This document shows, one piece after another, positions 4,827-48,041 of a DNA stretch of 64,000 nt (position 1 is the first letter of the stretch; the number at the start of each line of letters is the position of its first letter). The notes under the pieces are model-generated. The model searched no databases. It saw only the letters and a program-made list of their open reading frames with translations, and was not told the origin of the DNA. The DNA is from Cymodocea nodosa (lineage: Eukaryota > Streptophyta > Magnoliopsida > Alismatales > Cymodoceaceae), in assembly GCA_036874045.1 (NCBI GenBank), contig CM072344.1:6916501-6980500 (forward strand). The letters are read 5' to 3'. A program made the position numbers and the translations under genes.

Positions 4827-5019
4827 GGTAACTCGTAAATAACATTCTATTCTATATTTATAATGCACGTCCATAAAGCAAATGAATCTCATTGCAAGAA
4901 TGTGTCTTGTAATGTGTAGTGCGGTTCCTATTTTTATGGGTACGTGTTCCACTTCTAATTTCAAATTTTCAGTAACTGCTAAACCCACAAAGTTTTGTTC
5001 ATGGATAAAAGAATAACTG

Positions 5020-5661
5020 TTTAGCTTAATCCACGAACTAACCTCGTTGAGTTACAGTTAACTCAACGGACTAGCTTCAGTTACTCTTGCTAACTCTATG
5101 GACTAACTTCGTTGAGTTATAGATAACTCAACGAAGTGACCTTATATTATATTATTGACCTCGGGGAGTTAAGGTTAACTTAATGAACTTACTTCGTTGA
5201 GTTAACACTTGGCAAATTTCTAAAACTTACTCCTTGTATTAACTTCTATATTTTTTTTTCTTTCTTGCATTTTGTCTACTTAAATAAAGTTAAATACATA
5301 TCATTATTGCAGTGTTCTAATTAAAAACTCATTTAAATCTGAACATTTTATAAATATTTAACTTGCAATTCACTTCATGTTATGTAGAATTTATATTTTA
5401 CATTGCAACATGCAGATATTTTCAAGCATTAACCAGTTATCTTGCAATTAATCCTGTCATTCAGCAAATTTGCATATCTTTTAAACAATCTTGCATCTTG
5501 TTCAAACAATTATATAATATTCAAGATAGTTCATCCATTACATCATTCTCAAACATAAATGCAAACATATCTGAAAAACATACATTCATTTATATGGATG
5601 TTTACATTACAATCAATTAGTTATTTTTCATACACATATACAAGTAGACGAACAATACAAT
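5020..5661. repeat. Hairpin-motif spacer between ORF3 and gag, gypsy B
   Basis: At 5020-5215 there is an array of alternating CGTTGAGTTA and TAACTCAACG units. The best is a perfect 10-bp inverted repeat around a 4-base loop at 5110-5133. The remainder (5216-5661) is A+T-rich with no gene. The same arrangement occurs at 38160-38761 in gypsy A and 48050-48733 in gypsy C. Confidence 0.85.
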
Positions 5662-7907
5662 TTAATCTTTTCTCCTAAGTTCATCTACTTCCTTCTGGAG
5701 TTATTCTAATTGATGCTCCAATTGATTTATCCTCTCTACAACTCCTATAATTCCTCCAAAAGGTTCAGCAATCTTTGTAGCAGCATAATTTCTGTATTCT
5801 TTCACTGAAATGGTTCTTGATCTTATCCTTTTGGATGCCCATTTCGTGAAATCAATACTATCCACCATCAGTAGTAGAATCAAATCTCTATAAAATAATT
5901 TCTTTTTTACTACTCTCAGCTTGGAGATAAAAACTGTAGACCAATTTATCTGAATTCTGTTCACAACTGCATATGTGTCCCACTTGACAAATTGACTCAG
6001 TTCTATATCATGACCTTGTCGTTGGTAGACATTCTTAATTAAAATGTTAACTATCATGTGTGCTTTACCATTTAAGTGCTTTAGTTTATTTAACAATGGC
6101 ACACTAGGATTCATAGCTAAACACTCTTTTATGATTTATTCTGTCCACTCGACTGTAGTTGTGCTTTCCAGAATTTCTAGTCCTTCATTCTTCAATCCTA
6201 AAATGTTGTGGAGAAGCTCTAATGTTATCTATACATCAGCTTGCTCCACGTTGGAAATTAATCCTCTTTCTCCTTCTCTTAAATTTGCATAAAAGTAGGG
6301 CACTAGATTCTCATATACTGCATGCCCTCTTTCTTGAGAAATAAATTGTAGTAGACCTTGGAACTGAAATAAATCCTTAATTTCTTGCATCCCGTCCCAA
6401 TTTACTGGTCTACTGTATATGATATCATATCCCCTAATCTCTTGGTATTTATTATATTCTTCCTGAATCCAAAAGTGTACTTCATTTAAAACTATTGTTT
6501 CAGTCGGGTCAAGAATGTAAATTTGTTGCTCTAGAGGGGTTTGTTCTTGAACTTCCTCTTCCATGTGCTAAACTTGAATAGACTGAAAATGCTCCAAAGA
6601 TTCTTGCATTTTTACTTCTGCTTTTGACCGTGGTGGTGAGCCGGCAGAACTCTCCACTCTGTCTTGAATTCTTTCCAAAATTTGCTGAAGAGTTTCTTGC
6701 TCTTCAGTGGAATCTGTCGAGTCATCTCTTTCCATATGTACTTGTTCAACTTCTTGTTCAATTTCTTCATTTTCTTCTTCCTCCTGACTACCAATCTACA
6801 TTGTCATTGTTATTTCTGATTCTGTGGCATATTGGGATGGAGTTACGGGCAAATCATCTTCTACCCTAATTTCTGTTTCTTCTACTTTATAGGTTGTAGA
6901 TTAGTTTCAGCCTATTTTTCTTCTTTTCTTTGCTCTTGTTGCTGCTGCTCCTGCTCCTCAAAATCGGATAGCAGGTATATAGAAATTGGCTCTATAGGCC
7001 CTACTGATATTTGCACCTCAGATTTAATCTCTTCTTGATGTTCAAGCACTATCTCTTTTCCTTTCCTTCTTCTAATTAATTGTGTTTGGTCTTCCTCTTT
7101 TTCTTCTGAGATTAAATCCATAAAAATAGGCTCTGTAGGCCTTTGAGCCACAAGTACTAGCTCTTCCTGTTTAATTTTTTCTATAATTCTTGGTCTTGAA
7201 GGACTAGCTTCAGCTCCTCTTATAATAGGTCTGGTAGTGGCTTCTTGATGCTGTTCAACTTTAATTTTATATTGGGCTTTCAACCTTTCTGTAGCCCTCT
7301 TTTTGCACCATACATCAAACACCAGACATGCTATAGCTACTACCAACTCTTCTAGTTCTCCTTGGTCTTTTCCAATTTGAACCAATTCTTGAAATTCTCT
7401 TATTTCTTCCTCAATAGAAGGCCCCAAAATTGCTGCTCTTTTTAACGGCCTTGGTGGTGGAACTGAAGATCTTAGCTACTGTTCCTTAGGGACAGGTCTT
7501 TCAGCAGTCAACTCCTCTTGTTCTTCAGTTACTTGTTCTTCATTTTCTTTCCTTTGTTGCTCCTAGATTGCTCTCTAAGCCCGTCTACCTATACACATTT
7601 TGAACCAGAGTCGGGACTTACATTGGATCAATTATAGGGCAACTTCATTATTTGGCCTGATTCTTCTCTCTTTTCTTACAGCAACTTTCGTAGCAACTTT
7701 GATTCTAGTTTCCATCATCTAAGGTATTTTTATGCCTAAATCAACTAACACTTTCATCTAGTAGAAAAGGTCAGATTCTACCTTTTAAAGCTCTTTTTCC
7801 CTCATTGTATTCCTAATTTTCTACCTTGTGTGTCATTCCTCCGAATCTTTAAGAAATTCTGAAGTGTCAACTACGGCCTCCTAGAATTCTAGTGTCATCT
7901 TTGCCAT
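5662..7907 (-). pseudogene. ORF3 fossil with plant-transposon-protein domain, gypsy B
   Basis: The frame runs from an ATG at 7907 to a stop at 5662-5664, about 750 codons, and is broken. The N-terminal third is charged and probably helical. The middle is rich in Glu and Gln (an EQEQQQQEQ run) and low in complexity. The last third matches what I recall as the 'putative plant transposon protein' domain (PF20167-like): FQGLLQFI, GHAVYENLVPYFYANL, TPELL, then LNGKAHM, NRIQINW and KKLFY. It occupies the env-like position 3' of integrase, but I see no signal peptide or membrane segment. Homologous ORFs occur in gypsy A and C and in copia 1 and 3. Its function is unknown. Confidence 0.75.
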
Positions 7908-8059
7908 CGTAGAGTTACACAATGGAACAGAATCGCTCTGATCTCTACTAGTCTAAGTTCTAAATGATTCTGCGGATAATGCCCCCAAACTCTAAGTTAA
8001 GTATAAATAAGCCCTAAGTTTAGGCAAGTAATCGGGTCATTTCCCACACAAACTCTTGC

Positions 8060-8600
8060 TCTCTCATCCATGGAATTACAGTTAACTCCACGAACTAAGT
8101 TCGTGAACTTAACTATAGTACTCCATTGAGTTATAGTTAACTCAACAAGGTAAGTTCGTTAACTTATCCTAGACTCAACGGAGTAAGTTCGTTGAGTAAA
8201 GTGTAACTCAACAGACTTTCTATAAAGTTATATCTAATAAAAATATATATAATAATACTTTTTACTTCGGTCAAGACCGAAGAATTCCCAATCTAACCGA
8301 TTTTTAATTTTCCAACATTTTAAAATTTTTTGATCAAATCATTATATTCCTCGGTTCAACTGAAATTAAATATATATATATTTTTTTCTTTGTCAGTTAA
8401 ACCGATACTATACTTCGGTAACACCAGTATTAAACTAAATATAATATATAGATTTGTTTATGTTTTTATGTTTCGGTCAGACCGATGGATCCTATCGGTT
8501 GAACCGCAACGATTTTTTTTCTTTTAAAATATGTTTTAGTAAAACCGATAATTCCTTTCGGTTGAACCGTGACTATGTTTAAATAAGGTTTTTTTTATTT
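8060..8600. repeat. Two palindrome classes between integrase and ORF3, gypsy B
   Basis: The stretch 7908-8623 holds no gene. At 8070-8215 it carries the TAACTCAACG/CGTTGAGTTA units. At 8260-8580 a second class appears: CTTCGGTC-AA-GACCGAAG (8265-8282, 8-bp arms), TCGGTC-A-GACCGA (8473-8485) and several CGGTTGAACCG copies. Equivalent spacers lie at 41150-41510 (gypsy A) and 51040-51560 (gypsy C). Confidence 0.85.
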
Positions 8601-8623
8601 ATATATACTTAGAAAATTTCTTA

Positions 8624-8952
8624 CTAAGTAAAGCTCGAGTAGTCCTCTACTCTTACTTCTTTTATAATTTCAAAAGAACATTTTGGTATCTTCAAAATAG
8701 GTCTAAGTTTTTGTTCATTTACTTTAAATATATTCTGATTTTTAGGATTTTCAATTTCAATAACTCCATAGGGATAAATATTTCGAACTATGTAAGGTCT
8801 TGCCCATCTAGATCTTAATTTTCTTGGATAGTTATGGAGTCTAGTCATGTAAAGATATACTTCTTGTCCTATTTCAAAGGTTTTTAGAATAATTTTCCTG
8901 TCATGCTAGAACTTCATTTTCTCTTTTTCTCTTACAATTTTTGAATAAGCTT
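8624..8952 (-). pseudogene. Integrase C-terminal part, gypsy B
   Basis: This is the C-terminal DNA-binding end of a Ty3/gypsy integrase: KLRSRWARPYIVRNIYPYG, then VNEQKLRPIL. It matches 41583-41910 of gypsy A. The rest of the integrase is at 21451-22423, on the far side of copia 1. Confidence 0.85.
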
Positions 8953-30578: not shown

Positions 30579-32448
30579 TTAAGAAAAACTTTTCCTTAGT
30601 ACCCAATGTTGTTGAGGACCAAGTTCATTAAATGCATATTTCTTCTTTTTGTTTAAAAATAGTTTAACATTATCATTTATATTCTTATTAGTTGTAAGTA
30701 CTATTGATTTATCATTAGCTTCATACTCACATATAGCATTATTGCTTTTACAATCATTCTTTTTGTTTTCAAATGTAGTATAATCAAGACCAAACAGATT
30801 TTTATCAAATGTTAATTTATTTTGGTCATGCTTATACATTTCAGTAAGTTCATACCAAGATTTTGTACTTGTATTAACATTTTCCATACATACAAAATCT
30901 TTTTCTGCACAAGAATTTTTAGTTTTATCACATGCAGAATGAGTAATATGTCTAATACCAGTGTATTGAATTACATTCTTAGGTTTCTGAATTTTCAGTT
31001 TACTACAATTGTTTGAAATTTTAGAAACATTAGAAACTAAATTTCCAAAACAAGAAACAAGATTTTTAGAAACATTTATAGTCATGTTATAAGTACAATT
31101 TGACAAATCACATTGATTTATATTATTACTACATGATTCATCCTTTGAAATACCTACTTCTACATATTTATTATCTTGTTTCATAATAAAAGGAATTTTA
31201 GTCTTAGATTTACTTGAACTGCAACTAAGAAATCCTTTATTGGCTTGAGATTCAGGATATTCAGGATAATCAAATTCTAAGCCAAATTTATAAGACACCG
31301 CAGGGGTACTAGTTAGTTTTTCTTAGTTTGACTTAAATTCCATTTCTCAATGGTAGAATTTAAATCTTGCTCTCTTAGTTTTAATTTATCTATCTCTAAT
31401 TCAAGTTCATTTATATTGTTTCTCAACATTTCATTTTCAGATTCTATCTTTAATTTTTCAGCATTTATATTTTATATTTGTTTATGCAAGATACATTCAT
31501 TAAATCTAAATTTTTGCAAATCTCTAGCATGATTTTCATTATCACATTTAAACATTTCTAATGTAGTAGACAGGAAACAATTTTCTTCTTCCATAATGGA
31601 TGAAGATTTTCTAATATTCTTATTTTCCAGTTTACATACTTTAAGTTTTTGTAATAATGCATGATAAACACATAATAATTCGTCAAAGTTGAAATCTGAA
31701 TGACTTTCAAGATCAGATATTACCTTAGACTCATCTTCCATGAAGCACACATGAGCAACGTCTTCTAACTCTTGTTCTCCTTTTGAATGTGAAGATTTTA
31801 ATGTTGATTCCTCAAATTCAGACTCTTCAGACGTGTCATCCCAAGTGACCTTCAAAGCCTTTTTCTTGTAAAACTTTTTCTGAGTTTTCTGAGTCATCTT
31901 CTTCTGATTTGTCCTACTTTGCTTTTCATTTTTCCTCATAGGACAATCTGGAGAAAGATGTCTAGGTTTCTTATAGTTGTAACATACATACTTTCTGAAT
32001 GAAGAATTCTTGTCATTCATTGATTTTGACGTTGAGGGTTTATCATTTTTGTTCCTTTACTGTTTCCTAGCTTTCCATGCTTTCTTGAATTTCCTAGTCA
32101 GTAAAATCAAATCCTCATCAGAATTAGTAGATATATCAGAATCTGAATTAATTTCGAAGGCTATTTCTTTCTTCATTTTTAGTTTGTTGTGACTTAGTGA
32201 TTCATTTAATTAAACTTCATAAGTTGTTAAATTTCCTATAAGTTCATTCATAGTATAAACATTTAAATCTCATGATTCCTCAATTGATGTTACTTTCTAA
32301 GACCATTTAGAACTTAGGGATTTGAGAATTTTCCTCACCAAATCCTTTTGTTCAAAATTCTTTCCTAAACATTTTAAAGAGTTTATGATATCAAGAAATC
32401 TAGAAAACATCTCAGAAATATTTTCGTCTTCATGCATCTTAAAGAGTT
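30579..32448 (-). pseudogene. Gag region of copia 2, partial
   Basis: A partial SIRE/Tork-type gag. The UBN2-like part is recognisable at 32300-32448 (LFKMHEDENISEMFSRFLDI, KDLVRKILKSL), a nucleocapsid-like segment near 31970, and a long Ser/Asn/Lys-rich and coiled-coil-like tail (32.0-30.6 kb) that has little identity with copia 1. It is broken, and its 5' part is absent at the junction with gypsy A. Confidence 0.85.
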
Positions 32449-33366
32449 CCGTCACTACATACGATGCGATTACACCACTGAAAATTAAACCACATACAAT
32501 CCTGTCTCCTCTCTCTATAGAATCGCGAGTCCAGAATTGCAAGATAATCTCCTCTTCAGCATATAGGCATCAACCCGAAGTCAAGGCTAGAAGCTTTACG
32601 ATCTCTTGAAATATGAGTCAGTGCTTGGTGAAAATGGCTTCCCTTCCCACGACGCGATCACTCCTCACAATGGTTGTCAGGCACCGTGTTTGGCTAAGAA
32701 TCAACCCGACATCTAGAAAGTATTCTCATAGACCTCCAATGGTTGGTGATTATGGTGGTGATGGTGGTGGTAACAATGGTTGGTGTGGTACTTTGGAGAA
32801 TTGCCGATACTGCCTATAGAAAGCTCGGTGCTCCTCCGCTGTACACACTAGCCGTCCATCGATCACACCCGCACTTTTTTTCTTCTTTTCTTTTATATTT
32901 CTTCAGTAGTAACTGTTTCTGCTTGAATGGTCGGTTGGATTTCCTTCATTCATATCAACGACGATGATTTCTTCTCCCTATGCAATACATGCAATCGTGG
33001 TTTTCCTTCCAACTATCTTGTTTCTGCAACCGCTACAATGGCATATTAGAAAATAAATAGTCTATGGAGTTACAGATAACTCAACGGACTTTCTTCGTTG
33101 ATTTGACTATAAAACACGTGCATAAATTTAACTATCCAATGCTCAGGTACATTTTGGATACTTAAGAATTTCACAGCCTACAACTTACCGATAGTTCAGA
33201 AATGTACTAAATTGACATTAATTCCCCAAAATTAAGCAGATTCTTTAATTAAAGCTTATAACAGTGCAATTATAACATAATGGCTTAATTCTCATATGAT
33301 AAGCTAAATATTATAGAATTAACCATCATTTAACCGTTAATAATATGCACTTTTTCAATCTAAACA
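32449..33366 (-). repeat. Partial 3' LTR of gypsy A
   Basis: It ends (element start) TGTTTAGATTG at 33366 and aligns with 47110-48041 of the 5' LTR; the rest is absent at the junction with copia 2. It holds AGTCTATGGAGTTACAGATAACTCAACGGA-type inverted motifs at 33058-33100. The ORFs here are by-products of GGT repeats. Confidence 0.9.
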
Positions 33367-33378
33367 CTTCCCCCATAC
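33367..33378 (-). other. Polypurine tract of gypsy A
   Basis: On the element strand TATGGGGGAAG sits directly before the TGTTTAG of the 3' LTR, as expected for plus-strand priming. Confidence 0.85.
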
Positions 33379-34640
33379 CTAAATTTTGCTAGTCCCTTAG
33401 CAAACTATGATCTAATTATTTGGTCTTTCAAAAAGTGCTAGAATAAATTCCTTTTCTTCTTCTTTTTCTTCTTCCGTTCAGCATAAAAAAAAAAATATAT
33501 TCTGTATGTTTCAGTAATCAACTTGCAAATATACTTAAAATATATGCAAATTACGTACAAAGTATATCATCATCACATAGGTGTTAATTATATTATCGTT
33601 TGTTCTTCTTTTCATCATCTGTCATCTTGAATTTTCCAATAAGATTTCTAGAAGAAATTTCAACAATATACGAATCAAAGTACAATCCAATTCAATATGA
33701 TTAAGACAAGTAGAATAAAGAATTGTATCTCCATTAAAACAACTTCAAAAGTCAATTCCAGATTCATATTTTAGCAATTCTAGATAATAGAAAATATACT
33801 CAATTCATAAGATATCTATATTTCACAAAACACTTGTATCTTTTCAAAACAGTATATGTTTTTTTTTTTTTTCTTTAAAAGTTAATTTGACAAGCCTTAA
33901 TCATACAGGAGCTTTCTAATGTACCCATGTAACGAGCTTTCAGTCAATAATCCCATATTTGATTAGGATCTTAGGTTGCCAGATTTCAAGAGTCCTTTTT
34001 TCTTTTTTAGGACAACAATCCTTACATACCTATCTGCTCAAGTACAAAAGGCTCGTGATCAAACAAGTCAATAAACTCTCAAATTTTTCACTTTATTTAT
34101 TTATTTATTAAAATACACACAAAACAAAGCATTAATCACATATTGTATATGTACGTTTTTCATTAATACAGATGAAGTAAAACACCAATCTCATATAGTC
34201 CTACTTCTATCATTTATTGAAAATATGAATCCATAACAGTGAGCTCATACTTTTTCTGTAGTTTAATAAGATCTACACATAAATCATTCTACAAGTTCAA
34301 TCAATCAAATTAAATGTATCTTTAATCATATGTGTTTCATTTAATCTAGAATTCACATCTCAGCTCCTTCAAGAATTCAAATAATTTACTGATTTTTCAT
34401 TAAGCATTCTGATTTCATTTTAAAATCGTGAAACTATTAAACTCATGAAATTCAGAAAAAACATAAGATACTATATCTAGATTTGCATAAATAGTAAATT
34501 CTATAGCATCATATATAGGCTTCTAAATATAACATTCAAGCAGTTACAGATTATAAATTTTACAGTCTCAATTATCAGATAGTTAAAGTAAGTTCATAAA
34601 AATTTTCAATTTCCACAAAACTTTGTAGTACCATTTTAAT
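33379..34640 (-). other. 3' untranslated module 2 of gypsy A, shared with copia 2
   Basis: No gene. This 1.26-kb block aligns with 26391-27480 of copia 2, though the two elements belong to different superfamilies. Gypsy B has no counterpart within the window because it starts at the module 1 border. Confidence 0.85.
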
Positions 34641-35118
34641 TCCTTTAATTAACAAACTTACATGGCTGTTACTTTAATTACCTCCCCCCCATACCTACAT
34701 TTTGCATTGTCCTCAATGTAAAAGATTTGGCAGTAAATACAGTAATTGTAGCAGGCATGAATACAGTTTTGTTGATTTAAAATTCAGGATAAGTAATCAA
34801 TTACATACCTTGTTTTGTTTGTATCTCCTTCTGCATATTCTGATTTTTGATTCTGAAAACTTTTCATTCACAGATAAAAGAAAAAAAAATATAACAAAAT
34901 AACATTTAACAGATATTGATAATTTAGTGTCTTGTGTGGAACCCAAGCTCCTATGCCTTTGGTGGCTCACAAGCAAGTCAGTTGGTTTCCCAGAACAGAT
35001 ACCAACAAATTGGATTGATATATATTTTTTTTTTTCTTTTATAAAATAAAATGAAAACTATATTTTTTCTAAAAATAAACGTAGAATACACACAACATTA
35101 AACACACAAAATCACAGC
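34641..35118 (-). other. 3' untranslated module 1 of gypsy A
   Basis: No gene. It matches 1-524. It contains a second purine tract (GGGGGGGAGG on the element strand, 34679-34690) beside ATACCTACATTTTG, very like the true polypurine tract at 33367. It also has a donor-like GTATGTAATTGATTAC on the minus strand near 34795-34812. Confidence 0.6.
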
Positions 35119-36258
35119 TTAAGAACATGATTGAAAAGTAGGAACGAATGGAATAAATGTATTAGTCCAAGCAAACTTTTTAGGCATAGTTCTTCTTGCT
35201 ATTAATTCTATTTTCATGCAATTCTTATTCCTTCTTAATTTATAAACGTGTAATATATTATAAATTCCAAATACAAGTGTATTACTATAAATCATATGAA
35301 ATGCAGAAAGGGATCCTTTTTGGTTCCAGGGTAATGTAGTAGTTTCTATTTCTACATCTATTTCAATATATTCCTCTTCCCACTTCCATTCATTAATGTC
35401 TTCCATAATCCATATTTGAAATTTCATTAATTCATCCCACCATCTTATCAGACATAAAGTAGGATCATCTTCTTCATTATACCACATTCCTATTTGAATT
35501 TTATTAAATTCTGCAGATGGTGGTTTAGCTATATCACTCGATATAGGTAAAATTTCTATATATTCATCATAATTGTCTATGATCACTATGTATAAATCAG
35601 ATCCAAATGCAATTGATATATCTATGACAAGATATATATATCCATCAAGTATGACATGTGTTTGGTTAATTAATGATTTCTGTCCTAGATATATCATAAT
35701 ATTTTCATTCCAAAATCTATTCAGAAAATTATACACACCTAATCGTAAATCTTCACCCCAATTTCCTGTAGGTCTGCAATAATATAATTTTTCAGGAATT
35801 GCAGAATTTTTATTAGAAAATATTAAAGCCGATCCACAATTTACAGTTGGTACTTCAAATCTATTAGGTCTTCCTATATTCCATTCTTTTCCTGTTATAG
35901 GATTTCTTATCAAAATATCAGGTAATAATAAACTTGCATACCTTGGTCTCGTCCTGTATATGATTAATCCTTCATCTATCCCCATAATATGATTTATTCC
36001 TTTTAATGTATTGGGTGGAATTCCAGTAGTTTCTTCCATAGCAAGATATTCATGATTAATTGAACTACGATTAAATGACCTCCATACGAATCCATCTCTA
36101 ATCTTAGTCATTTTTGCAACTTGTAGTTCCTAAAAATATTTTTCTTCACTATAGTCTTTAATTTCCTTTGATATACAACACAGCCTGCATAGATCTTTAG
36201 CTGACAAGTTACTCAGTACTTCCCTTAGTGCATCCAACGGTAATTGCATCAATTCCAT
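35119..36258 (-). pseudogene. Captured F-box / F-box-associated gene, gypsy A copy
   Basis: About 380 codons from an ATG at 36258 to a stop at 35119, broken near its start but readable for some 330 residues. The F-box (LSAKDLCRLCCISKEIK) is followed by the associated domain: GIDEGLIIYRTRPRYASLL, NPITGKEWNIGRPNRFEVP, ALIFSNKNSAIPEKLYYCRP, GYIYLVIDISIAFGSDLY, DPTLCLIRWWDEL, FQIWIMEDINEWKWEEEY. In the family such proteins recruit substrates to SCF ubiquitin ligases through SKP1. That it is a host gene carried by the element is inferred from the matching copy at 525-1661, with the same flanks. The long conserved C-terminal part suggests it stayed under selection until recently. Confidence 0.85.
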
Positions 36259-36267: not shown

Positions 36268-36269
36268 CT
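36268..36269 (-). promoter_or_regulatory. Candidate splice acceptor before the F-box gene, gypsy A
   Basis: On the minus strand a T-rich stretch ends TGTGTTATATAG just before AATCA and the F-box ATG. Gypsy B has TTGTTTATGTTATACAG at the same place (AG at 1673-1674). Confidence 0.55.
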
Positions 36270-36324
36270 ATATAACACACACAAATTTTGTAGAGATAAA
36301 AAATTAACATAACTACTACACACC

Positions 36325-36425
36325 CTCGTGGAGTTAAGGAATAACTCAACGGACTAAGTTCGTTGAGTTAAGAACAAACTCAACGGACTAAGTTCGTTGA
36401 GTTAAGAACTAACTCTACGATACTA
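36325..36425. repeat. Tandem hairpin motifs between gag and F-box, gypsy A
   Basis: Two tandem units. The first has perfect 10-bp arms TAACTCAACG (36342-36351) and CGTTGAGTTA (36361-36370) around the 9-base loop GACTAAGTT. The second (36376-36404) repeats it almost exactly. A partial third (AACTCTACGATAC) follows. Confidence 0.92.
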
Positions 36426-36480
36426 GTAACTAAAAATAAAAACATATATACATATAGATAGTTGCTTCAAATATGCTGCT

Positions 36481-37824
36481 TCATTCAGCTACCCTCCCAA
36501 AAGAGGTATCAATTTCATTAACAGTTATATTGACAGGATTAGGTATAGCTTGTATTGGCAATCCTCTAGTAGGTCTAACTTCCATTGGTTCCTTCTGTCT
36601 AAGTGGTATATTTCTATTCTGATTTTGAATAGCAGCACTTCCAAATACAAAATCTAGACGATTGTTTAATTATTGGATTATCTTTTCTAATTTCTCTATT
36701 CTAGATCCTTATTCCAATAATGCTTCATAACTTATATTCTTCTCATTTACATTTTCTCCTCCCTAGAAATTGTTGTTTCTCCAAGATAAATTCGAGTGAT
36801 TTCTCCAATTAGGATTATAAGAATTTCCCAAGTTATCTCTCTAGTTTCTAGCATAAATAATATCTAAATCATTTATGTTTGCATTCTTTTCTGCTAGCTT
36901 TCGATTTAATGATAACTCTTCTATTTTCTTTGTTAATTCATTTAATTTCACCTCAAGCATAGTACTTGAATCTATTTCATGCATTCCTCTTGGCAATATT
37001 TTTTTATTTGCAATAGCTTCAGCTGAGTTTTCCCACTGTGCAGTTCTTTTTGCAAGGTTTTCTAAATATGCCCATGCTTCTTCACTACATAACTTTAAAA
37101 ATCCATTTTGACAAGTAGATTCTAATAAAGATTTTGTTGAAACATCTATGCCTTCATAAATTATACCTACTAATTGTGCTTCACTCATTGCATGATGTGG
37201 ACATTGGGTCAGTAAATCTTTAAATCTTTCAAAATATTTCCAGAATGATTCACCCTGTTTTTGGCTACACATTAATATTTCTTTCTTCTTTTTAATCGTT
37301 TGATGTGTTGGATAATATTTTTCTAGAAAAATAGAGCAAAATTTAGTCCATGTAGAAATTGAATCAGGCGATAGAGTATATAACCATCTCTTAGCTGTGT
37401 CTTTTAAAGAAAAAGGGATATATCTAAGTTTAATAACATCTATACTCATGTTCGGCATTTTCATCATTTGACAAACTTCATTAAATTCTCTAAGGAAATA
37501 ATAGGCGTCCTCTCTTTCTAATCCATGAAAATGTGGCAATTGACTAATATAATTAGATTTCAGTTCAAACCTATATCGCTCAAAGTTTGGCAATCGAATA
37601 CATGAAGGTTCATCAACTAATTCTGGATACAAAATTTCTCCTAATGGTTTTTCTATTGGAACAGCCATTTCTATGTTCTCTTTTAAAGAAAGGTTAGCTA
37701 CACCCCAAAAAATTTCGTTAAAGTTCAGTTCAGAAAATTTTTCAGTACTCCTTTGCGATGAAAATTCCTAGGTAGGTGTTCTTACTAATCGTTTAGTACT
37801 TAGAGAACGAGTCCATGTGCTCAT
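36481..37824 (-). pseudogene. Gag-like (capsid) fossil downstream of pol, gypsy A
   Basis: About 448 codons from an ATG at 37824 to a stop at 36481-36483, broken but with about 275 residues of clean frame. Capsid blocks: SCIRLPNFERYRFELKSN, LPHFHGLEREDAYYFLREF, PFSLKDTAKRWLYTLSP, FLEKYYPTHQTIKKKKEI, QGESFWKYFERFKDLLTQCP. These are the standard order and motifs of the Ty3/gypsy gag, which forms the virus-like particle. The C-terminal part holds a WRNHSNLSWRNNN segment as in Athila. I see no zinc knuckle here; the knuckle is in ORF1 at the other end of the element. Confidence 0.9.
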
Positions 37825-37852
37825 AAATAAATAGTAGAAGATTAATTACGTA

Positions 37853-37853
37853 C
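37853..37853 (-). promoter_or_regulatory. Candidate splice donor before gag, gypsy A
   Basis: On the minus strand AATTG|GTACGTAATTAATC; gypsy B has ACTG|GTATGTAATTAATC at 3270. Both lie 30-50 bases before the gag ATG and fit the plant donor consensus. Confidence 0.45.
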
Positions 37854-38159
37854 CAATTTGAAGCTTTCCATTTAGTAAATATTTGTTGTCGGATGAATTC
37901 GAATTAGTTGCTTCACCTTCTAGTTCCTCCAACGCATTCTCCTTTCTTTTAAAAGTGCTGGTAACTCATAAATAACATTCTGATTTATATATATAATGTA
38001 CATCCATAAAGTGAATAAATCTCATTGCAAGAACGTGTCTTGCAACGTGCATCGTGGTTCCTATTTTTATGGGTATGTGTACCACTATTAATTTCAAATT
38101 TTAGTAACCGCTAAGCCGACGAAGTTTCATTCGTGGTTAAAAGAATAACCGTTCTACTT

Positions 38160-38345
38160 AATCCACAAACTAACCTCGTTGAGTTACAGATAACTTAACA
38201 GAACACAGCCGGTTACTGTTGCTAACTCCACGGACTAACTTCGTTGAGTTATAGATAACTCAACGGAGTGACCTTATATTATATTACCGACCTCGTGGAG
38301 TTACGGTTAACTCAACGAACTTACTTCGTTGAGTTAACACTTAGC
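38160..38345. repeat. Hairpin-motif array between ORF3 and gag, gypsy A
   Basis: About eight alternating CGTTGAGTTA/TAACTCAACG units, including a perfect 10-bp inverted repeat with loop TAGA at 38242-38265 and GAGTTACGGTTAACTC near 38298. The rest of the spacers on either side (37825-38159 and 38346-38761) is A+T-rich and holds no gene. Confidence 0.9.
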
Positions 38346-38761
38346 AACTTCTAAGTTTTACTCTCGTAAATTCCTCTCTGTTTTTTTATTCTGCTAACTG
38401 AAATAAAGTTAAATCTATGTCATTAATACCTCATTTTAATCAAAATTCATTTAAATTTGAACATTATATAAAGATTTAACTTGTAGGTCATTTTATATTA
38501 TGCAGAATTTACATTTTACCTTGCAACATGTAGAAATTTTTAAGCATTTATCCTGTCATTCAGCAAATTGTAATTCTGTTACATATTCATTCACAAAGTT
38601 CCACAAATTGTATAATATTCAATAAACTCCATTCATTTCACATCCAAAACACGTATGAAAAGTACATCTGAAAAATTATATTAATTCATATGAATCAATT
38701 TACAATGTAAATACATCATACAATTTCATACAATTTTATACAAGTAGACAAACAATACAAT

Positions 38762-40976
38762 TTAATCTCTATTCCTACGTTCATCTACTTTCTTCTGGAG
38801 TTTTTCTAATTGAAGTTCTAATTCATTAATTCTCTCTATATCTCCTGTAATTCCTCTAGAATGTATAGCTATCTCTGCAGCTACAAAATTTCTGTATTCT
38901 TTCATTGAAATGGTTCTTGATCTGATCCTTTTTGATGTCCATTTCATGAAATCAATACAATCCACCATCAGTAGTGGAATCAAATCTCCATAAAATAATT
39001 TTTTCTTTACTACTTTCAGCTTGGAGATAAAAACTGCAAACCAATTTATTTGAATCCTGTTTACAACTGCATATGTGGCCCATTTGACAAATTGACTTAA
39101 TTCTATGTCATGGCTCTGTCATTGATAGACATTTTAATCAGAATGTTAGCTACCATGTGTGCTTCACCACTTAAATGCTTCAATCTGTTTAATAAAGGCA
39201 CACCAGGATAGCTAAACAATCTTTGATTTCCTATTCAGTCCACTCAACGGTAGTTGTGTCTTCCAAAATTTTTAGTCCATTCTTTAATCCAAAAATGTTG
39301 TGGAGAAGCTCTGGTGTTATCTATACATCAGCTTCCTCCATGTTGGAAATTAATCCTCATTCTCCTTCTCTTAAATTTGCATAGAAATAGGGCACTAAAT
39401 TCTCATATACTGCATGCCCTCTTTCTTGAGAAATGAATTTCAGTAGACCTTGGAACTCAAATAAATCTTTGATTTCTTGCATTCCATCCTAATTTACTGG
39501 TCTACTATAAATGATATCATAACCCCTAATCTCTTGGTATTTGATATAAGCTTCCTGACTACAAAAATGTACTTCATTCAAAACTGTTGTTTCAGTCGAG
39601 TCAGGAATGTGACTTTGTTGTTCTAGAGGGGTTTGTTCTTAATATTCCTCTTCTATAGGCTACATTTGAACATTCTCTATAGATTCCTAAATTCCTGTTT
39701 CTGTTTCTGTCTATGGTGGTGAGCTGGCAGAACTCTCCACTCTATCTTGAATTATTTCCATAAATTGCTGAAGAGTTTCTTGCTCTTTAATGGAATCTGT
39801 GAAGTTATTTTTGTCTAAATGGCTTCTTTCAACCTCTTCATTTTCTACTCTTTCTTCTTCTTCCTGACTACCAATCTGTTCTGTTACTATTCTTTCTTAT
39901 TCTGTAATAGATTGGGATGGAGTCACGGGCAATTCAGTTTCAGCCCTAATTTCTGTTCTTTCTTCTTGTACAGGCTACAGATTAATTTCAGCCTGATTTT
40001 CTTCTTGTCTTTGCTCCTCCTATTGCAGCTCCTCCTACTCCTCAGAATCGGATAGCAGGTTTATAAAAATTGGCTCCACAGGCCCTGTTGATATTGGTAT
40101 CTCAGATTTAATCTCTTATTGATAATCAGGCACTATCTCTTTTCCTTTCCTTTTTCTGATTAATTGTGCCTGTTCTTCCTCTTTTTCTTCTAAGATTAAA
40201 TCTACAAAAGTAGGCTCTGTAGGCCTTCGAGCCACAGGTACTAGCTCTTCCTGTTTAACTTTTTCTATAATTATTGGTCTCGAAGGACCAGCCTCATCTC
40301 CTTTTACAACAGGTTTGCAGTAGCTTATTAATGTTGTTCCATTTTGATTTTATATTGGGCTTTCAACTTTTCTGCAGAATCTTTTTGTAAAGTGCATCAA
40401 ACACTAGGTGTGCTTTAGCCACTGCCAAATCTTCTGATTCTCCTCGATTTTTCCCAACTTGAATTAGTGCTTGAAATTCCTTTAACTCTTCTTCAGTCAA
40501 AGGCCCCATCATTTCTACTCGTGCCAACGGCTTAAATGGTGGAACTGAAGGTCCTGGCTGCTGTTCCTCAAGAACAAGTCTTTCAGCAATTGGCTCGTCT
40601 TGTTCTTCAGTTACCTCTTGTTGTTCCTGCTGCCATATTTCCCAACTTCCATGACCAGCAATGCACCTTTTGAACCATAATCTGGCCTTGCACTGGATTA
40701 GCTCTAGGGCAACTTCATTGTACGGCCTAATTTTTCTTTCTTCACTAACTGCAATTCTGTTGCTACTCTGATTCGTGTCTCCATTATCTGAGGTATTTGT
40801 ATACCACAATCTATTAATATTCTTCTTAATCTAAAAAGTTCAGATTCTACCTTCTGTAACTCTTTTTCTCTCGTCGTATTTCTGATCTTCTACTGTGTGT
40901 GCCATTCTTCTGATTCCCTCAGAAATTCTGATGTATCAACAACCTCTTCCCCGAATTCAGGTGTCAACTTCCTCAT
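38762..40976 (-). pseudogene. ORF3 fossil with plant-transposon-protein domain, gypsy A
   Basis: About 740 codons from an ATG at 40976 to a stop at 38762, broken. The N-terminal part (REKELQKVESELFRLRRIL, then KERKIRPYNEVALELIQC) looks helical and charged. The middle is rich in Glu and Gln with a Pro-rich piece (EEQQPGPSVPPFKPLARVE). The last third (about 38.76-39.6 kb) is the PF20167-like domain also seen in B and C. The N-terminal layout also resembles the ORF3 of copia 1. Confidence 0.72.
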
Positions 40977-41149
40977 CGTGGAGTTACTCAACAGCACGGA
41001 ATCGCTTTGATTTTTACTGTTCTAGATTCTAAATGATTTGCCAGATAATGCCCCTAAAACTCTAGGTTTAAGATAAATAAGCCCTAAGTTTAGGCAGGTA
41101 ATCGGGTCATTTCCCGAACCAACTATTACTATCTCATCTACGATCTTAG

Positions 41150-41510
41150 CTACAGTACTCCGTTGAGTTACAGTTAACTCAACAGAATAAGCTCGTTGAC
41201 TAACTCAAGACTCAATAGAGTAAGCTTGTTGAGTTAGGCGTTGAGTTAGGCGTAACTCAACAAACTCCCCGTACAAACAGATATAATAATAAAAATACTA
41301 CAGATAATAGTTTTTCTATTGTTGTTGTTTTTTTTTTTTTTACCGGTTTAACCGATACTATGTTTCGATCAGACCTAATTTTTTTTCAGTTGAACCGATA
41401 CTATGTTTTGATAAAATCAACATTTTTTCTGAAAATTAATATACATATTTTTTTTATGTTCCGGTCATACCGATGGATTTAGTCGGTTGAACTGTAACAA
41501 TTTTTATATT
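41150..41510. repeat. Two palindrome classes between integrase and ORF3, gypsy A
   Basis: At 41155-41280, AACTCAACG-type units (CGTTGAGTTACAGTTAACTC near 41161-41180). At 41340-41500, the ACCGATA/CGGTTGAAC class. There is no gene between 40977 and 41582. Confidence 0.82.
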
Positions 41511-41582
41511 TTAAATATATAAATATATTTATTTTTTAATGTGTTTTTTTTTTTATATATAAACATAGAAACTGATTTCTTA

Positions 41583-42830
41583 CTAAGTAAAGCTCAAGTA
41601 GTCCTTTACTCTGACTTTTTCTATAATTCCAAAGGAGCTTTTTGGTGTTTTCAGAATAGGTCTAAGTCTTTGTCCATTTACTTTAAATATATTCTGATTT
41701 TTAGGATTTTCAATTTCAATAGCTTTATAAGGATAAATATTTCGAACTATGTAAGGTCTTGCCCATCTAGATCTTAATTTTCCTGGATGGTTATGGAGTC
41801 TAGCCATATAAAGATATACTTCTTGTCCTATTTCAAAGCTTTTTGGAATAATTTTTCTATCATGCTAAAATTTTATTTTCTCTTTTTCTCTTACAGTCTT
41901 CGAATAAGCTTCATTCTTAAATTCTTCTAATTCAATTAGTTGCATTTTTCTATTTTCAGTAGCTTGATTTAAATTAGTGTTCAGAGTTTTTAATGCCCAA
42001 TAAGCTTTATATTCTATTTCAGCTGGTAAATGACAACTTTTTCCATATACTAGCTTAAAAGGTGACATACCTAAGCTTTTCTTATAAGCAGTTCTATAAG
42101 CCCAAAGTGCATCTATCAATCTATTAGCCCAATCTGTTCTAATAGGATTTACTACTTTTTCTAAGATTAACTTAATTTGTTTGTTAGCACTTTCTACTTG
42201 TCCACTTGTTTGCGGATGATATGATGTTGCAATTTTGTGGTTTACTCCATATTTCTTCATTAAGGCTTCAAAACTTCTATTACAGAAATGAGTTCCTCTA
42301 TCACTGATAATAGCTTTAGGTATTCCAAATCTAGCAAATATATTTGTTCTTATAAATTGTATTACCACTTTGTTGTCATTAGTTTTTGTAGGAATAGCTT
42401 CTATCCATTTAGATAAGTAATCCACCCCCAACAATATGTAATTAAATTGATTAGACATAGGAAATGGACCCATAAAATCTATTCCCCACACATCAAAGAT
42501 TTCAACCTCAACAATAGGATTAAGAGGCATCATATTCCTCTTTGATATTCTTCCTATTTGTTGATAACTTAAACAACTTAAGCAATATTTATGAGCATCT
42601 TTGAATAATGTTGGCCAATAAAACCCACATTACAGAATTTTTGCAGTAGTTTTCCCTGAACCAAAAGGCCCTCCACAAGCTTGATCATGACAGAAAGACA
42701 ATATGCTCGGATATTCAATTTCTGGAACACACCTCCTTAAAACCAGATCAGGACATTTCTTAAATAAATAAGGGTCTTCCCAATAGTAATATTTTACTAT
42801 CGAGAAAAACAATTTCTTATCCTGTCTATT
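41583..42830 (-). pseudogene. Integrase of gypsy A
   Basis: Ty3/gypsy integrase, broken. In order: the zinc-binding region ([12 protein letters not shown]), the core starting [18 protein letters not shown] with the first catalytic Asp, [17 protein letters not shown], the second Asp in [31 protein letters not shown] with the catalytic Glu, [19 protein letters not shown], and a C-terminal end KLRSRWARPYIVRNIYPY. The phrase [11 protein letters not shown] is a hallmark of the Athila/Tat group. Confidence 0.94.
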
Positions 42831-44640
42831 CCAATCCTTAGGTGTTAAACCAGTTACTAAGTAATTAACTATGTCTGCATACCAAGGCATTGTGTTGATG
42901 GTCATTAATTGTTCATCAGGAAAATTATCCTTAATTTCAATATTTGATTTTTCTATTTGTAATCTTGATAAATGATCTACTACTACATTCTCACAACCTT
43001 TTTTATCTTTAATTTCTAGATCAAATTCTTGTAATAATAATATCCATCGGATCAATCTAGGCTTAATCACTTTTTTCTTTATTAGATGTTTTAAAGCTGA
43101 ATGATCCGTGTATACTATCACTTTAGCTCCAATCAGATATGATCTAAACTTTTCCAAGGCAAACACAACAGCTAATAGTTCTTTTTTAGTAGTTGTGTAA
43201 TTAACTTGAGCATCATTTAAGGTTTTGCTTGCATAATGAATCACTCTAGGAGATTTTTCTATCTTCTGTCCCAACACTGCTCCTATAGCAAAATAAGATG
43301 CATCGCACATTAATTCAAATGGATGGTTTCAATCAGGTGCTTGAATTATAGGAGTTGAAATTAAGCTAGTCTTAAGCCTGAAAAATGCTTCCTTGCAATT
43401 TTTATCAAAGTTAAATGGGACATCTTTTAATAGATTAGTTAAAGGTCTAGCTATTTTGCTAAAGTCTTTAATAAATCTTCTATAAAAACCAGCATGTCCT
43501 AGAAATGATTTAATATCTTTTACTGATTTAGGTTCTGGTAGATTAGAAATTACTTCTAGTTTAGCTTTATCTACTTCCAACCCTTTCTTAGAAACAACAT
43601 GCCCTAAGACTATTCCTTGTTTAACTATGAAGTGACATTTTTCCCAATTTAAAATTAGATTTTTTTCCACACAACGTTTTAATATTTGGTCTAAATTGCT
43701 TAAACAAACTTCATATGAGTTGCCATATACTGTAAAATCATCCATAAATATTTCTAAGAAATCTTCAGTCATTCCAGTAAATATGCTCTACATACACCTT
43801 TGAAAGGTAGCTGCCGCATTGTATAATCCGAATGACATTCTCTTAAAACCATAAGTTCCATTAGGATAGGTGAAAGTTATTTTCTCTTGATCCTGTAATG
43901 CTACTGGAATTTGATTATAACCTGAATACCCATCTAGGAAACAAAAATATTCTTGCCCTGCTAATCTTTTCAGCATTTGATCTATAAAAAGTATGGGAAA
44001 ATGATCTTTCCTAGTCACAACATTTAGCTTTCTATAGTCTATACATACTCTCCAACCTGATTGAATTCTAGTAGGTATCAAGTCTTGACTTTCATTCCTA
44101 ATAACTGCTAATCCTGATTTCTTGGGAACTACATGGATTGGACTAACCCACGAGCTATCAGAAATCAGATAAATTATGTCATTATCTAACCATTTCACTA
44201 TTTCCTTCTTGACTACTTCTTTAAGATTTGGATTTAATCTCCTCTCAGGAATTCTAATAGGTTTAACATTCTCTTCTAAATATATGTGGTGACAGCATAA
44301 AGTTGAACTTAACCCTTTTATATTAGTCATAGTCCATCCTATTGCTTCTTTATAACTTTTTACTACATCTTTTAATTTAACTATTTCATCCTCTTTTAAA
44401 TCTAAAGCAATAATGATTGGACAGGTTCGTTTATCTTCAAGAAATATATAGGTTAATTTAGGAGGTAAAGGTTTTAATTCTAAATGTTGCTCATCAGAAG
44501 CTAGAGCTCCTAATTGAACATCATCATTTTCTAAATCAATTTCTTCCTGATGTCCTTCTATATTTATGCTTTCACTTTCCTCTAAAGTTTCAGAATTGAT
44601 TTGCCTATTTAATTCTTCTTGAATCACATCTTTTAACATA
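42831..44640 (-). pseudogene. Reverse transcriptase and RNase H of gypsy A
   Basis: RT covers about 43.4-44.5 kb with WRVCIDYRKLNVVTRKDHFP, FLDGYSGYNQIPV, TFTYPNGTYGFKRMSFGL, the catalytic EIFMDDFTVYGNS, ILNWEKCHFIVKQGIVLGH and FLGHAGFYRRFIKDFSKIARP. RNase H covers about 42.9-43.33 kb with [34 protein letters not shown] and [17 protein letters not shown] in place of YVDD is usual for Athila. It is broken in few places. Confidence 0.95.
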
Positions 44641-44651
44641 TCTCCTTCATC

Positions 44652-45070
44652 CTATAAAAAGTCTATGGTATGTAAGGACATTTCTAATTCCTCAAACCTT
44701 TCTGGTTTGAAAATATTTAGTTGAGTATCCTCATTACCATATGCTAACTTCATTACTCCAATTTTACAATTTATAACAGCCCCTAATGTTGCTAAAAATG
44801 GCCTTCCCAAAATTAAAGATGTATCACCATTTTTATGCTTAATTTGTTGGGAATCCAAAATTACAATATCAATAGGATATATAAAATTTTTGATTTTAAT
44901 TAAAACATCCTCTATTTTTCCTCTAGGGTATCTTATACTTATATCAGCTAATTGAATAACCGTATTAGTAAGAGTTAAGCCTTCTAATCCTAAGGATGCA
45001 AATATATCACTTAGCATAACATTTATACCTGCACCTAAGTCTATTAAGGTTCTTTCTAGAATGGTATTTT
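44652..45070 (-). pseudogene. Protease of gypsy A
   Basis: An aspartic retropepsin-like domain. The segment LIDLGAGINVMLSD carries the active-site block in its Athila form, followed by TNTVIQLADIS and ILGRPFLATLGAVINCK. It is followed by an acidic linker that leads into RT. Confidence 0.85.
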
Positions 45071-45182
45071 CTATGGTGCATGATATAACAGGGAATCCAA
45101 GATCAGATAACTTTTTAGGAATTTGTGGCAGAAATAGGGAACTACTTTGCTCAGCTAAAAAGACTTTTCTAAGAACTTTTCG

Positions 45183-46253
45183 CTATCTTTTCCTAGTACA
45201 CCAATCCTCCAAAAATTTAGCACAAGGTAGCATTTTCTGTAATAGATCTAACAAAGGAATGTTAACCTGTACTTTTTCAAAAATTTCTTTGATTTTTTCT
45301 TGTTTTTCAGGTATTGTTTGTTGTAATCTTTCAGGATAGGGTGCTAAGGATTGTGATTTAAAAGATTCTTTTTCTTTCAGTTGATTTGTTTGATCATTTT
45401 TAGCTTCATTAGCAGATTCAGATTGTTTTTCAGTGATTTCTAGATTTTCAGCTATTACATTTTCATTATCATTTTGATTTTTACTCTTATCCACCTTCAT
45501 ATCATTTTCATTTTGAGTTCTTGGTGGTATATCAGTTCCAGATCTTAATGTTACACAAACATCTTCCATATTTTTGTTACTCTCATGATGTTTTTGTATA
45601 TCATTTTCATGTTTATGATCTTCAATTGTTTTTAGTTTTAAAGTGCATTCTTTAAATTCTCTTGCATTAATATTTTCTGTTTGCTATATATTTTGCAAAT
45701 TATGCAGGTTTATAACATTATAATTTTCATTGTCCTGTTGCATAACTTGTATTTTCATTGTATATTCGTCCAATGCTTTTAATTTTCTTTCCAGATCATC
45801 TAAACTCATTGCATTCAATTTTTGATCAATTTTCATTATGGTTTTTTTAGTTTCGTAAATTATATCCTTTTTAGGTTCTGAATATGATTCCTTATAGTTT
45901 AATTGGTTGACTTCTTGTTGCTGACACATAAAGTATTTTAGTTTGTCCAGGTTTTGCTCTATACTACGCTCCAGTCTGTCATACCTATCCCAAACTTCCG
46001 TGTCTTTCAACATATTACACACTCTATACTGACCATCAGTTGGGTAAACTATAGAATTCTCATACTCGACTCTATTATATTGAGGATAATTCATTTGTTG
46101 TTCATGGGATCTAACCATCTGTAAACGTCTCAGTTTCAAACAGTCAGAAATGTCATGTCCTTCAGAATTGCAGAATTCACATATGCTAATTACAAGTTTC
46201 AGAAATCTTTGAGCATAAGCATATGCCATATTCTCAATTACAAAAGAAAACAC
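45183..46253 (-). pseudogene. ORF1 of gypsy A: zinc knuckle and gag C-terminal part without capsid
   Basis: The first ORF starts about 80 bases after the primer site, at MAYAYAQRFLK or a little upstream. It carries a clear CX2CX4HX4C knuckle (CEFCNSEGHDISDC), the counterpart of CELCGGSHTSDQC in Athila gag, then a coiled-coil-like region (DRYDRLERSIEQNLDKL). Further on are VTLRSGTDIPP and PYPERLQQ ... NIPLLDLLQKMLPCAKFL, the linker that precedes protease in Athila. No capsid domain precedes the knuckle; that domain is at 36481-37824. It is broken. Confidence 0.85.
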
Positions 46254-46335: not shown

Positions 46336-46353
46336 TCCCCGGCAACGGCACCA
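46336..46353 (-). other. Primer-binding site of gypsy A (tRNA-Asp type)
   Basis: On the minus strand TGGTGCCGTTGCCGGGGA, one base from the tRNA-Asp complement TGGCGCCGTTGCCGGGGA. It lies 7 bases after the LTR end, as in gypsy D. Confidence 0.93.
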
Positions 46354-46360: not shown

Positions 46361-48041
46361 TGTTTGTGTTTTCCCAACACGACACCAGAATATCTGATTA
46401 GATCTCCAATAACATACTAGAAAAACTGGATTTGTTACTTCTGTTTTTACTTAGTTAATTTATCTTTATGCCTATTCTTTTCTTTTAGAAGTAAACAAAC
46501 AACCTTTAATACAATTTAGATATTAATTCCAATTTGTACTTTAATTGCAAGTGCACAGTGTCTATTGTATCAATGTGCAAGTACAGGTTGATCCCGTAGG
46601 GAATTGCTTAAAAGTTTAAAATTGTCCGTTTGTTAACAATCAAATTTATATATTCAATAAGCTCTCCGTTGAATTACGGTTAACTCAACGGACTAACCTC
46701 GTGGACTTAAGTTAACTCCACGAGTCTGTCTTTTCTTTTTAAATACTGCTATTTACAGAGGAATTTGGCCAACCATTGGGCGATTCCACAGATTGTAAAT
46801 AACATCAATTAAGTTCTTTAATGTTAGTAAATACTAGATTTATCATTAAGCATACTAACATTCAGATAATTCAAACAGTAATCATTAAAATCTTTAAGTC
46901 TTTTGAATGAACCAATTTCAGTAAACTACAAAACTAAAACAAACATAAAACAATCACAACACTGACAAAGATAACATTAATCACGATACAACACAAACAA
47001 TACAACACTCAAATACAACATACAATAGAAGATAAGTTGTTTTTGGTATTTTTGGTTTAATATGAACATGGAAATGGGCAAAATGTGAAATGTAAAGTAA
47101 TCTCAATCAACAGTAAATACTTCTGTCACTACATACGACGCGATTACACCACTGAAAATTAAACCACTTACAATCCTGTCTCCTCTCCCTATAGAATCGC
47201 GAGTCCAGAATTGTAAGATAATCTTCTCTTCAGCATACAGGCATCAACCCGAAGTCAAGGCTAGAAACTTTACAATCTCCTGAAATATGAGTCGGTGCTT
47301 GGTGAAAATGGCTTCCCTTCCCGCGACGTGATCACTCCTCACAATGGTTGTCAAGTACTGTGTTTGGCTCGGAATCGACCCAACATCTAGAAAGTATTCT
47401 CACAGACCTCCGATGGTTGGTGATTATGGTGGTGATGGTGGTGGTAATGATGGCTGGTGTGGTACTTTGGAGAATTGCCAATACTACCTATAGAAAGCTC
47501 GGTGCTCCTCCGCTGTACACACTAGCCATCCATCGATCACACCCGCACTTCTTTTTCTTCTTTTCTTTTCTATTTCTTCAGTAGTAACTGCTTCTGCTTG
47601 AATGGTCGGTTGGATTTCCTTCATTCATATCAACGGCGATGATTTCTTCTCCCTGCGCAATACATGCAATCGTAGTTTTTCTTCCAACTGTCCTGTTTCT
47701 GCAACCACTACAGTGACATATTAGAAAATAAATAGTCCGTGGAGTTACAGATAACTCAACGAACTTTCTTCATTGATTTAACTATAAAACACGTGCATAA
47801 ATTTAACTATCTGATAGTCAGGTGCATTTCAGATACTTAAGAATTTTACAGCCTGCAACTTACTGATAGTTTAGAAATGTACTAAATTAACATTAATTTC
47901 CCAAAATTAAGCAGATTCTTTAATTAAAGCATATAATAATGCAATTATAACATAATGACTTAATTCTCATATGATAAGCTAAATATTATGCAATTAACCA
48001 TCATTTAACCATTAATAATATGCACTTTTTCATTCTAAACC
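46361..48041 (-). repeat. 5' LTR of gypsy A
   Basis: About 1.68 kb. The element-sense end is ...AAACACAAACA before the primer site; the element-sense start is at about 48041, where the terminal base is altered from TGTTTAG. It contains hairpin motifs at 46670-46735 (GAATTACGGTTAACTCAACGG) and 47735-47765, a CACGTG at 47789, and GGT/GAT repeats near 47420-47460. The region next to the primer site (46540-46600) has the GTGCACTTGCAATTAAAGTA block usual in this group. Confidence 0.88.

Follow-up and report, generated by a model that had tools for sequence, protein, structure and literature searches.

A high-copy Ty3/gypsy retrotransposon family of Cymodocea nodosa with a probable F-box accessory gene behind a gag-containing intron

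Extra ORFs and introns are already known kinds of features in plant LTR retrotransposons. In the relevant passages of three studies (PMC7264820; Neumann 2019, PMC6317226; the Retand study, PMC11963269), additional sense ORFs are described as env-like or of unknown function. As in the family reported here, the extra sense-strand ORF of those elements lies between the integrase and the 3' LTR and occurs in most family copies; a search for the term "F-box" gave no hit in the available text of the three papers. In orchids, gypsy elements carrying an AlkB m6A demethylase were proposed to counter host surveillance, so that there too, as that paper's passages describe it, a Ty3/gypsy family fixed a host-type domain, although a different one (PMC9289625). 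The same passages, which report a screen of 121 genomes, include no F-box among the domains described, with zero occurrences of "F-box" in the text. Partial splicing of the RNA, changing the protein made, is described in the pertinent sections for Ogre and EVADE/BARE (PMC12786077, PMC6317226, PMC3735527). Those elements either have their intron between gag-pro and RT or splice to give a gag-only RNA, whereas in the present family gag itself sits inside the intron and the accessory gene is exposed.

Outside retrotransposons, polerovirus P0 and similar viral suppressors are F-box-like (PMC6593998, PMC6784205, PMC7582759), and in the excerpts concerned P0 is reported to act on AGO1, as is the plant F-box protein FBW2 (PMC2914764). 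P0 resembles our case as an F-box-like protein of a plant-infecting genetic parasite, a likeness by description and not by sequence: it is an F-box-like motif in an RNA virus, whereas here a full Pfam F-box is followed by a long C-terminal part. A sunflower repeat library contains 10 sequences annotated as F-box motif proteins, a likeness by annotation only, and the passages on them tie none to a retrotransposon family (PMC3852528). Our searches of the open-licence literature brought up neither an F-box gene belonging to a plant LTR-retrotransposon family nor a gag inside a spliced intron, which is not proof of absence.

The DNA analysed here (the window, 64,000 nucleotides of C. nodosa contig CM072344.1) is a nest of plant LTR retrotransposons in which the minus strand holds all 20 ORFs of at least 150 aa. 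Two elements, A and B, are members of one Ty3/gypsy LTR-retrotransposon family, both on the minus strand, and within the window they align at 84.8% identity over 3.3 kb, with the alignment continuing further upstream (Table 1). The original prediction had placed two F-box genes at 525-1661 and 35119-36258, and both frames were found there on the minus strand, 86% identical to each other. It had also located them after gag and before the 3' UTR; the first part holds for A and B, the second for B, as A leaves the window before its 3' UTR, polypurine tract and 3' LTR would be reached. These three parts follow the F-box gene in this order in B and in two copies elsewhere (L031, L032).

Table 1 Coordinates of the parts of elements A and B in the window.
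Feature	Positions	Strand	Remarks
5' LTR of B	46361..48041	-	Matches the 3' LTR of B over 938 bp at 92.3% identity; primer-binding-site-like sequence next to it
Primer binding site of B, TGGTGCCGTTGCCGGGGA	46336..46353	-	7 bases past the 5' LTR
pol frame of B: zinc knuckle (NC-like), protease, reverse transcriptase, RNase H, integrase	41586..46229	-	Single frame, interrupted by stops
Post-integrase region of B, broken ORFs	37854..41585	-	3.7 kb; exon 1 of the spliced RNA lies at the 3' end
Intron of B, GT-AG, containing gag	36268..37853	-	1586 bp; GTACGTAAT...GTTATATAG in B, commonest form GTATGTAAT...TTATACAG
gag capsid ORF of B, within the intron	36841..37668	-	Retrotrans_gag, E 2.1e-20; own-genome search
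F-box gene of B	35119..36258	-	379 codons, one internal stop (codon 43)
3' UTR of B	33375..35118	-	1.7 kb; from alignment with copies elsewhere
Polypurine tract of B, GGGGGAAG	33367..33374	-	Between 3' UTR and 3' LTR
3' LTR of B, truncated	32440..33366	-	Located by alignment in the window and to copies elsewhere
F-box gene of A	525..1661	-	Two internal stops (codons 223, 273)
Intron of A with gag, GT-AG	1673..3270	-	1598 bp; counterpart of the B intron
Post-integrase region and integrase end of A	4827..8952	-	Homologous to B 37960-41911

The 5' LTR of B has an altered first base (GG instead of TG) and, compared with the 2.2-kb LTRs of another copy, lacks about 0.5 kb. In its pol frame, Pfam recognised RVT_1 (E 1e-11), RT_RNaseH (2.6e-33) and rve (7e-16), together with a sub-threshold Asp_protease_2 (0.0016), while the zinc knuckle and the final stretch 41864-41586, the C-terminal part of the integrase, were identified by eye. 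The domain order PR-RT-RH-INT is thus present as in Ty3/gypsy, with the protease below the Pfam cut-off, and from the style of the sequence and the primer binding site the lineage may be Athila-like. Five pieces of the post-integrase region, from A and B, gave no significant Pfam match. The other copy mentioned above, at C16:9470137-9484471 (loci L034+L032), retains an LTR at either end (lengths 2184 and 2212 bp, identity 95.1%, K2P 0.051), a PBS-like site, the polypurine tract GGGGGAAG and a 5-bp target site duplication with one mismatch (GCAGC/GTAGC); its pol is partly deleted (jump from B 45744 to 42729). At a plant substitution rate of 1.3e-8 per site per year, its LTR divergence would correspond to an insertion about 2 million years ago.

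In the stretch 38000-54764, B seems to have inserted into a further family member, C (about 48042-54764), as its 5' LTR begins inside the post-integrase region of C, and L034+L032 is nested in another member of the same family in the same manner. Relative to B, A carries an insertion of about 1.46 kb (3363-4827) that is related, inverted, to 54888-55643. At 22424-24596 an inverted family LTR with leader directly abuts an integrase fragment of A (21451-22422), and a copia element at 57336-59075 contains a tandem duplication of about 870 bp, 96.3% identical.

The genome itself (374.6 Mb, 28 contigs) was then the search space for further copies, with the best candidates scored: 140 of 6871 first-look candidates for the gag of B and 121 of 6613 for the F-box. 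These best 121 F-box places share 88-100% identity with B and come from 20 of the 28 contigs; the listed copies other than the query are 88-94% identical and spread over many contigs, and in 36 of the 121 the matched stretch is free of stops. A 34-base pattern for the splice donor beside gag (see below), with at most 2 mismatches, occurs at 2214 places against 0 for the control. Whole-genome matches are far beyond chance, and the copy number is probably in the thousands, the presence of the F-box having been checked in the sampled loci.

Two sets of loci were sampled, each including B of the window: one chosen by gag similarity (L002-L030) and one by F-box similarity (L036-L064), the latter being biased against F-box stops and indels. 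F-box sequence lies downstream of gag in 29 of 30 gag loci; several are cut or partly deleted, and one keeps a C-terminal remnant only. Gag, in part or whole, lies upstream of the F-box in 28 of 30 F-box loci. Inter-copy distances of gag and F-box correlate (Mantel r 0.51, 0 of 999 permutations, 47 copies; 0.38 without the two most divergent copies), as expected if both travelled together; L016 and L050 are one copy, counted twice in this test and in the analysis of stop decay below. The proposal that the gene had moved with the family, made from the window alone, is borne out by this fixed place and these correlated distances, and the search for the F-box next to gag that had been suggested as a check returned the best 121 places described above. 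The F-box sequences fall into at least two subfamilies, of 15 and 36 among 51 copies in a two-way split (L004, L007, L013 and related loci versus L036-L064).

Whereas Ty3/gypsy elements have the gag capsid 5' of pol, the capsid gag lies 3' of the integrase in A, B and L034. This order is unusual, and the family is an unusual member still within the Ty3/gypsy superfamily. A zinc knuckle starts the 5' frame a few codons past its ATG. Gag thus appears to be split, from its sequence features, into a zinc knuckle in the 5' frame (46229-45687) and a capsid 3' of the integrase, inside the intron (37668-36841). A leader followed by the NC-side ATG within 40-68 bases was found in 503 exact leader-to-ATGGCATATGCT matches (255+248; control 0), so a 5' end of this kind is common. 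Among 97 donor places listed for contigs C1 and C2, 12 are preceded on the same strand, at 4-11 kb, by a listed leader (at 7998-8621 bases in 9 of the 12), and none has one downstream; among 18 listed spliced places on the two contigs, a leader lies upstream in 1 (8012 bases) and downstream in 1.

The two F-box loci without gag, L046 and L058, led to the intron. In L046, ...CAGACTG is joined to AATCAAC..., and the join in L058 falls at that position too but differs by one base, the F-box ATG being lost as well. The segment absent from both begins with GT and ends with AG. Across copies the donor is mostly CTG^GTATGTAATT (37 rows; T of GT in 94%) and the acceptor is TTATACAG^AATCA (64 rows; G of AG in 89%, missing in 11%) with a T-rich tract ahead, in a row set that contains several copies twice; we take both to be ordinary plant splice sites. 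In A and B, gag lies wholly inside the intron and the F-box directly 3' of it. The original prediction understated the locus here, having missed both the place of the capsid gag 3' of the integrase and the intron around it, which has to be removed to expose the F-box.

With a 34-base pattern and at most 2 mismatches, the spliced junction was found at 166 genomic places (81 forward, 85 reverse; reversed-pattern control 0), which is 7% of the 2380 places for both patterns, both counts varying with the mismatch limit. The intron is absent from the sequence in all four loci taken from this list (L065-L068). In a FastTree of F-box sequences, six spliced copies occupy at least 5 separate positions interspersed with unspliced relatives: L046 and L066 alone form a pair (support 0.86), other local supports being 0.59-0.89, and recombination between copies could add to this scatter. 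Tracing one spliced copy 8 kb upstream showed that it retains the integrase, the zinc-knuckle region and the 5' LTR, and that its pol has a further internal deletion. From the GT-AG junction at 166 places and the scattered tree positions it follows that family RNA was spliced, reverse-transcribed and inserted more than once. We read these genomic copies of spliced RNA as evidence that splicing at the gag intron takes place in the plant and is sometimes followed by reverse transcription; conserved splice sites with splicing of some transcripts, as in intron-bearing plant LTR retrotransposons with Ogre-like regulation, are thus seen in genomic copies. Other deletions were considered as further introns and rejected, as 0 of the 11 other junctions listed had GT...AG ends and several were merely jumps between similar regions. 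Ribosomes might gain access to the 3' half through an internal promoter or through further splicing from the 5' leader; among the few copies examined, no splice from leader to exon 1 was seen.

In the spliced form the F-box ATG stands 9 bases past the junction. Exon 1 of five spliced copies (L046, L065-L068) has an upstream ATG, preceded by an in-frame stop, that reads into the F-box as MESF(R/K)LNQQ-MEL, with a stop soon after this start in L066. The natural reading of this arrangement would be that the splicing exists to express the F-box.

The identity of the protein as an F-box protein is firm as judged by profile matches. Pfam F-box matches the A ORF with E 2.4e-9 and all 5 naturally open 379-aa genome copies with E 8.9e-8 to 1.4e-10 (32.2-41.1 bits, cut-off 20.5). 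FBA_1 matches at residues ~202-318 in 4 of these 5 at 14.0-16.4 bits, below its cut-off of 21.1. Of the F-box/FBA assignment made earlier, the F-box part therefore passes the Pfam threshold, and the FBA part is likely at a sub-threshold score. A Pfam FBA_1 search of the own genome gave 0 matches, as it did in 14 control genomes, and is so uninformative. No homolog outside the family was found beyond this genome for the C-terminal part of B (945 candidates), the N-terminal part of A (138) or a five-copy profile (5068), leaving no related host gene for the suggested tree, the PDB contained no relevant homolog of the F-box protein, and AlphaFold gave the two window proteins a mean pLDDT of 33. 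A fully open 379-aa ORF is present in 5 of 33 full-length copies, 29 of which were picked by F-box similarity; the other 28 are not intact, and the stops look like C-to-T decay after insertion.

Indels speak most clearly on whether the frame was kept. Between A and B there are 0 indels per kb in gag and 0.9 in the F-box (one 3-bp event), compared with 9-17 in the non-coding neighbours. In 30 copies not chosen by their F-box (27 gag-chosen loci, L031 and L032 in place of L003 and L005, and A of the window), the rate per kb and copy is 0.55 in the F-box, 7.3 in the spacer between gag and F-box, 5.4 on the 5' side and 11.5 in the 3' UTR. Frameshifting indels shared between these copies number 0 in the F-box versus 13 in the spacer, 30 on the 5' side and 10 in the 3' UTR, and the single shared F-box indel keeps the frame. 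The F-box-chosen set (28 copies) gives 0.09 per kb for the F-box, 0.97 for gag, 6.1 for the spacer and 7.1 for the 3' UTR. The rarity of F-box indels is the strongest sign in these alignments that source copies needed an open frame, and A/T runs in the non-coding parts may explain part of the contrast.

Substitutions were compared as non-synonymous to synonymous changes (N/S) relative to an expectation controlled for base and methylation context, in 25 copies not chosen by their F-box, covering at least 85% of codons 1-313 and including A and B. In frame, N/S is 0.69, 0.65 and 0.73 of expectation for changes seen in singletons, 2-3 and 4+ copies (p 0.006, 0.047, 0.127), and in the two other frames of the same copies 0.94-1.22. 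The two directions of the A-B comparison give 0.62 and 0.71 (p 0.003, 0.029), with 0.86 and 0.80 in frame 1, 1.0 in frame 2 and 0.41 in gag; for letters found in A only, frame 0 and frame 1 are alike (0.59, p 0.07, and 0.60, p 0.09). Pooled pairs give 0.79 in frame and 0.92 and 1.04 in the other frames, with 1.31, above expectation, at codons 46-150, and 0.73 in frame but 0.54 in frame 1 at codons 1-45 of the F-box motif. At 12 diagnostic sites between the subfamilies (15 versus 34 copies), 9 differences are non-synonymous and 3 synonymous. In the biased sets N/S is 0.58, 0.82 and 0.43 for the F-box and 0.48, 0.36 and 0.30 for gag, and for gag in the set other than its biased one 0.65, 0.64 and 0.53. 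NG86 dN/dS between A and B was discarded as a test of constraint, as wrong frames give similar values (0.45 in frame versus 0.46 in a wrong frame). Substitutions thus suggest a weak to moderate constraint on the F-box, mixed and not uniform along it. The long conserved frame expected from the window is upheld when judged by indels; the proposed comparison of non-synonymous with synonymous change agrees in lying below expectation in frame, with the weak, mixed signal and the inseparable NG86 frames on the other side. An absence of constraint between copies is contradicted by the indels and less clearly by the substitutions.

The fixed place, the kept frame, the GT-AG intron directly ahead and the spliced junctions in copies of different descent can all be read from the DNA itself. 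We consider it probable that they reflect a high-copy Ty3/gypsy family with the F-box as a standing accessory gene, a splice that removes gag and a predicted SCF adaptor, most likely lowering a host restricting or silencing factor. Weak substitution constraint and the stops in most copies could also be expected of a host F-box gene captured once and carried without selection, its frame surviving through recent spread of the family. We regard such cargo as rather unlikely: the flanking non-coding DNA of this set of copies has indels at 10-21 times the rate of the F-box, whose one shared indel is frame-neutral; A and B, though 14% divergent in the F-box, are set apart there by one 3-bp indel; and N/S lies below expectation in frame and not in the other frames of the 25 copies, with which the A-B pair agrees (frame 1 at 0.80-0.86). 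Repeated independent capture of an F-box gene was considered and rejected.

Loss of the gag segment might instead be an ordinary deletion or a gag-less ancestral form, its scatter in the tree coming from recombination between copies. Many copies have internal deletions elsewhere, the tree gives its branches modest support (0.59-0.89) and template switching between elements is possible; against this, the same GT-AG junction recurs at 166 places, none of the 11 other junctions listed has GT and AG ends, and spliced copies stand among unspliced relatives, which makes this account very improbable, and simple deletion of the segment was rejected. Two copies in one window might also point to a local segmental duplication or an assembly artefact, an explanation we find hardly credible given copies at 88-94% identity on many contigs and a copy elsewhere with both LTRs and a 5-bp target site duplication. 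Descent of only two copies from one segmental duplication, named beforehand as an outcome that would overturn the idea, is refuted by the same genome-wide copies.

For the favoured accessory-gene reading, we propose that two RNAs arise from the 3' half of the element. One, unspliced, would keep gag, with the gag ORF ahead of the F-box, and the other, spliced, would drop gag and place the F-box ORF next to exon 1 with its in-frame upstream ATG (MESFRLNQQ-MELMQL). Retroviruses reach env or accessory genes by splicing, and access to the F-box through removal of the gag intron may be likened to this. Judged by its protein family, the N-terminal F-box would join the host SKP1/SCF ubiquitin ligase, as we presume an F-box of such a Pfam score most likely does in a plant, and the C-terminal part, weakly FBA_1-like, would select the target. 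The sequence suggests that the element makes its own protein-degrading tool, which would most likely serve to reduce a host factor restricting or silencing it. By analogy with viral P0, host FBW2 and the orchid retrotransposon RNA demethylase, a role in counter-defence is our leading guess, tentatively held.

The main alternative to a host target is an action of the F-box protein on its own element, such as on the level or timing of Gag or capsid. Copy control by own products is known in other retrotransposons, and gag and F-box are coupled here through one splice; nothing in the sequence indicates Gag as a target, and we think this regulation of the own Gag unlikely. For counter-defence, a more specific form, possible though doubtful, would be gated by the splice: unspliced RNA would serve replication and Gag, and intron removal would yield an SCF adaptor destroying a host silencing factor, an endogenous parallel to P0. 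If this gated form is true, the place of gag inside the intron would couple both outputs.

Extra genes of plant LTR retrotransposons are known, and their use is mostly unexplained. In this family the extra gene has a clear biochemical identity, an F-box and hence a likely SCF adaptor; its gag is housed inside a spliced intron, and the logic of its expression is recorded in the genome by spliced copies. The family thus offers a concrete, testable case of possible use of the host ubiquitin system by a retrotransposon.
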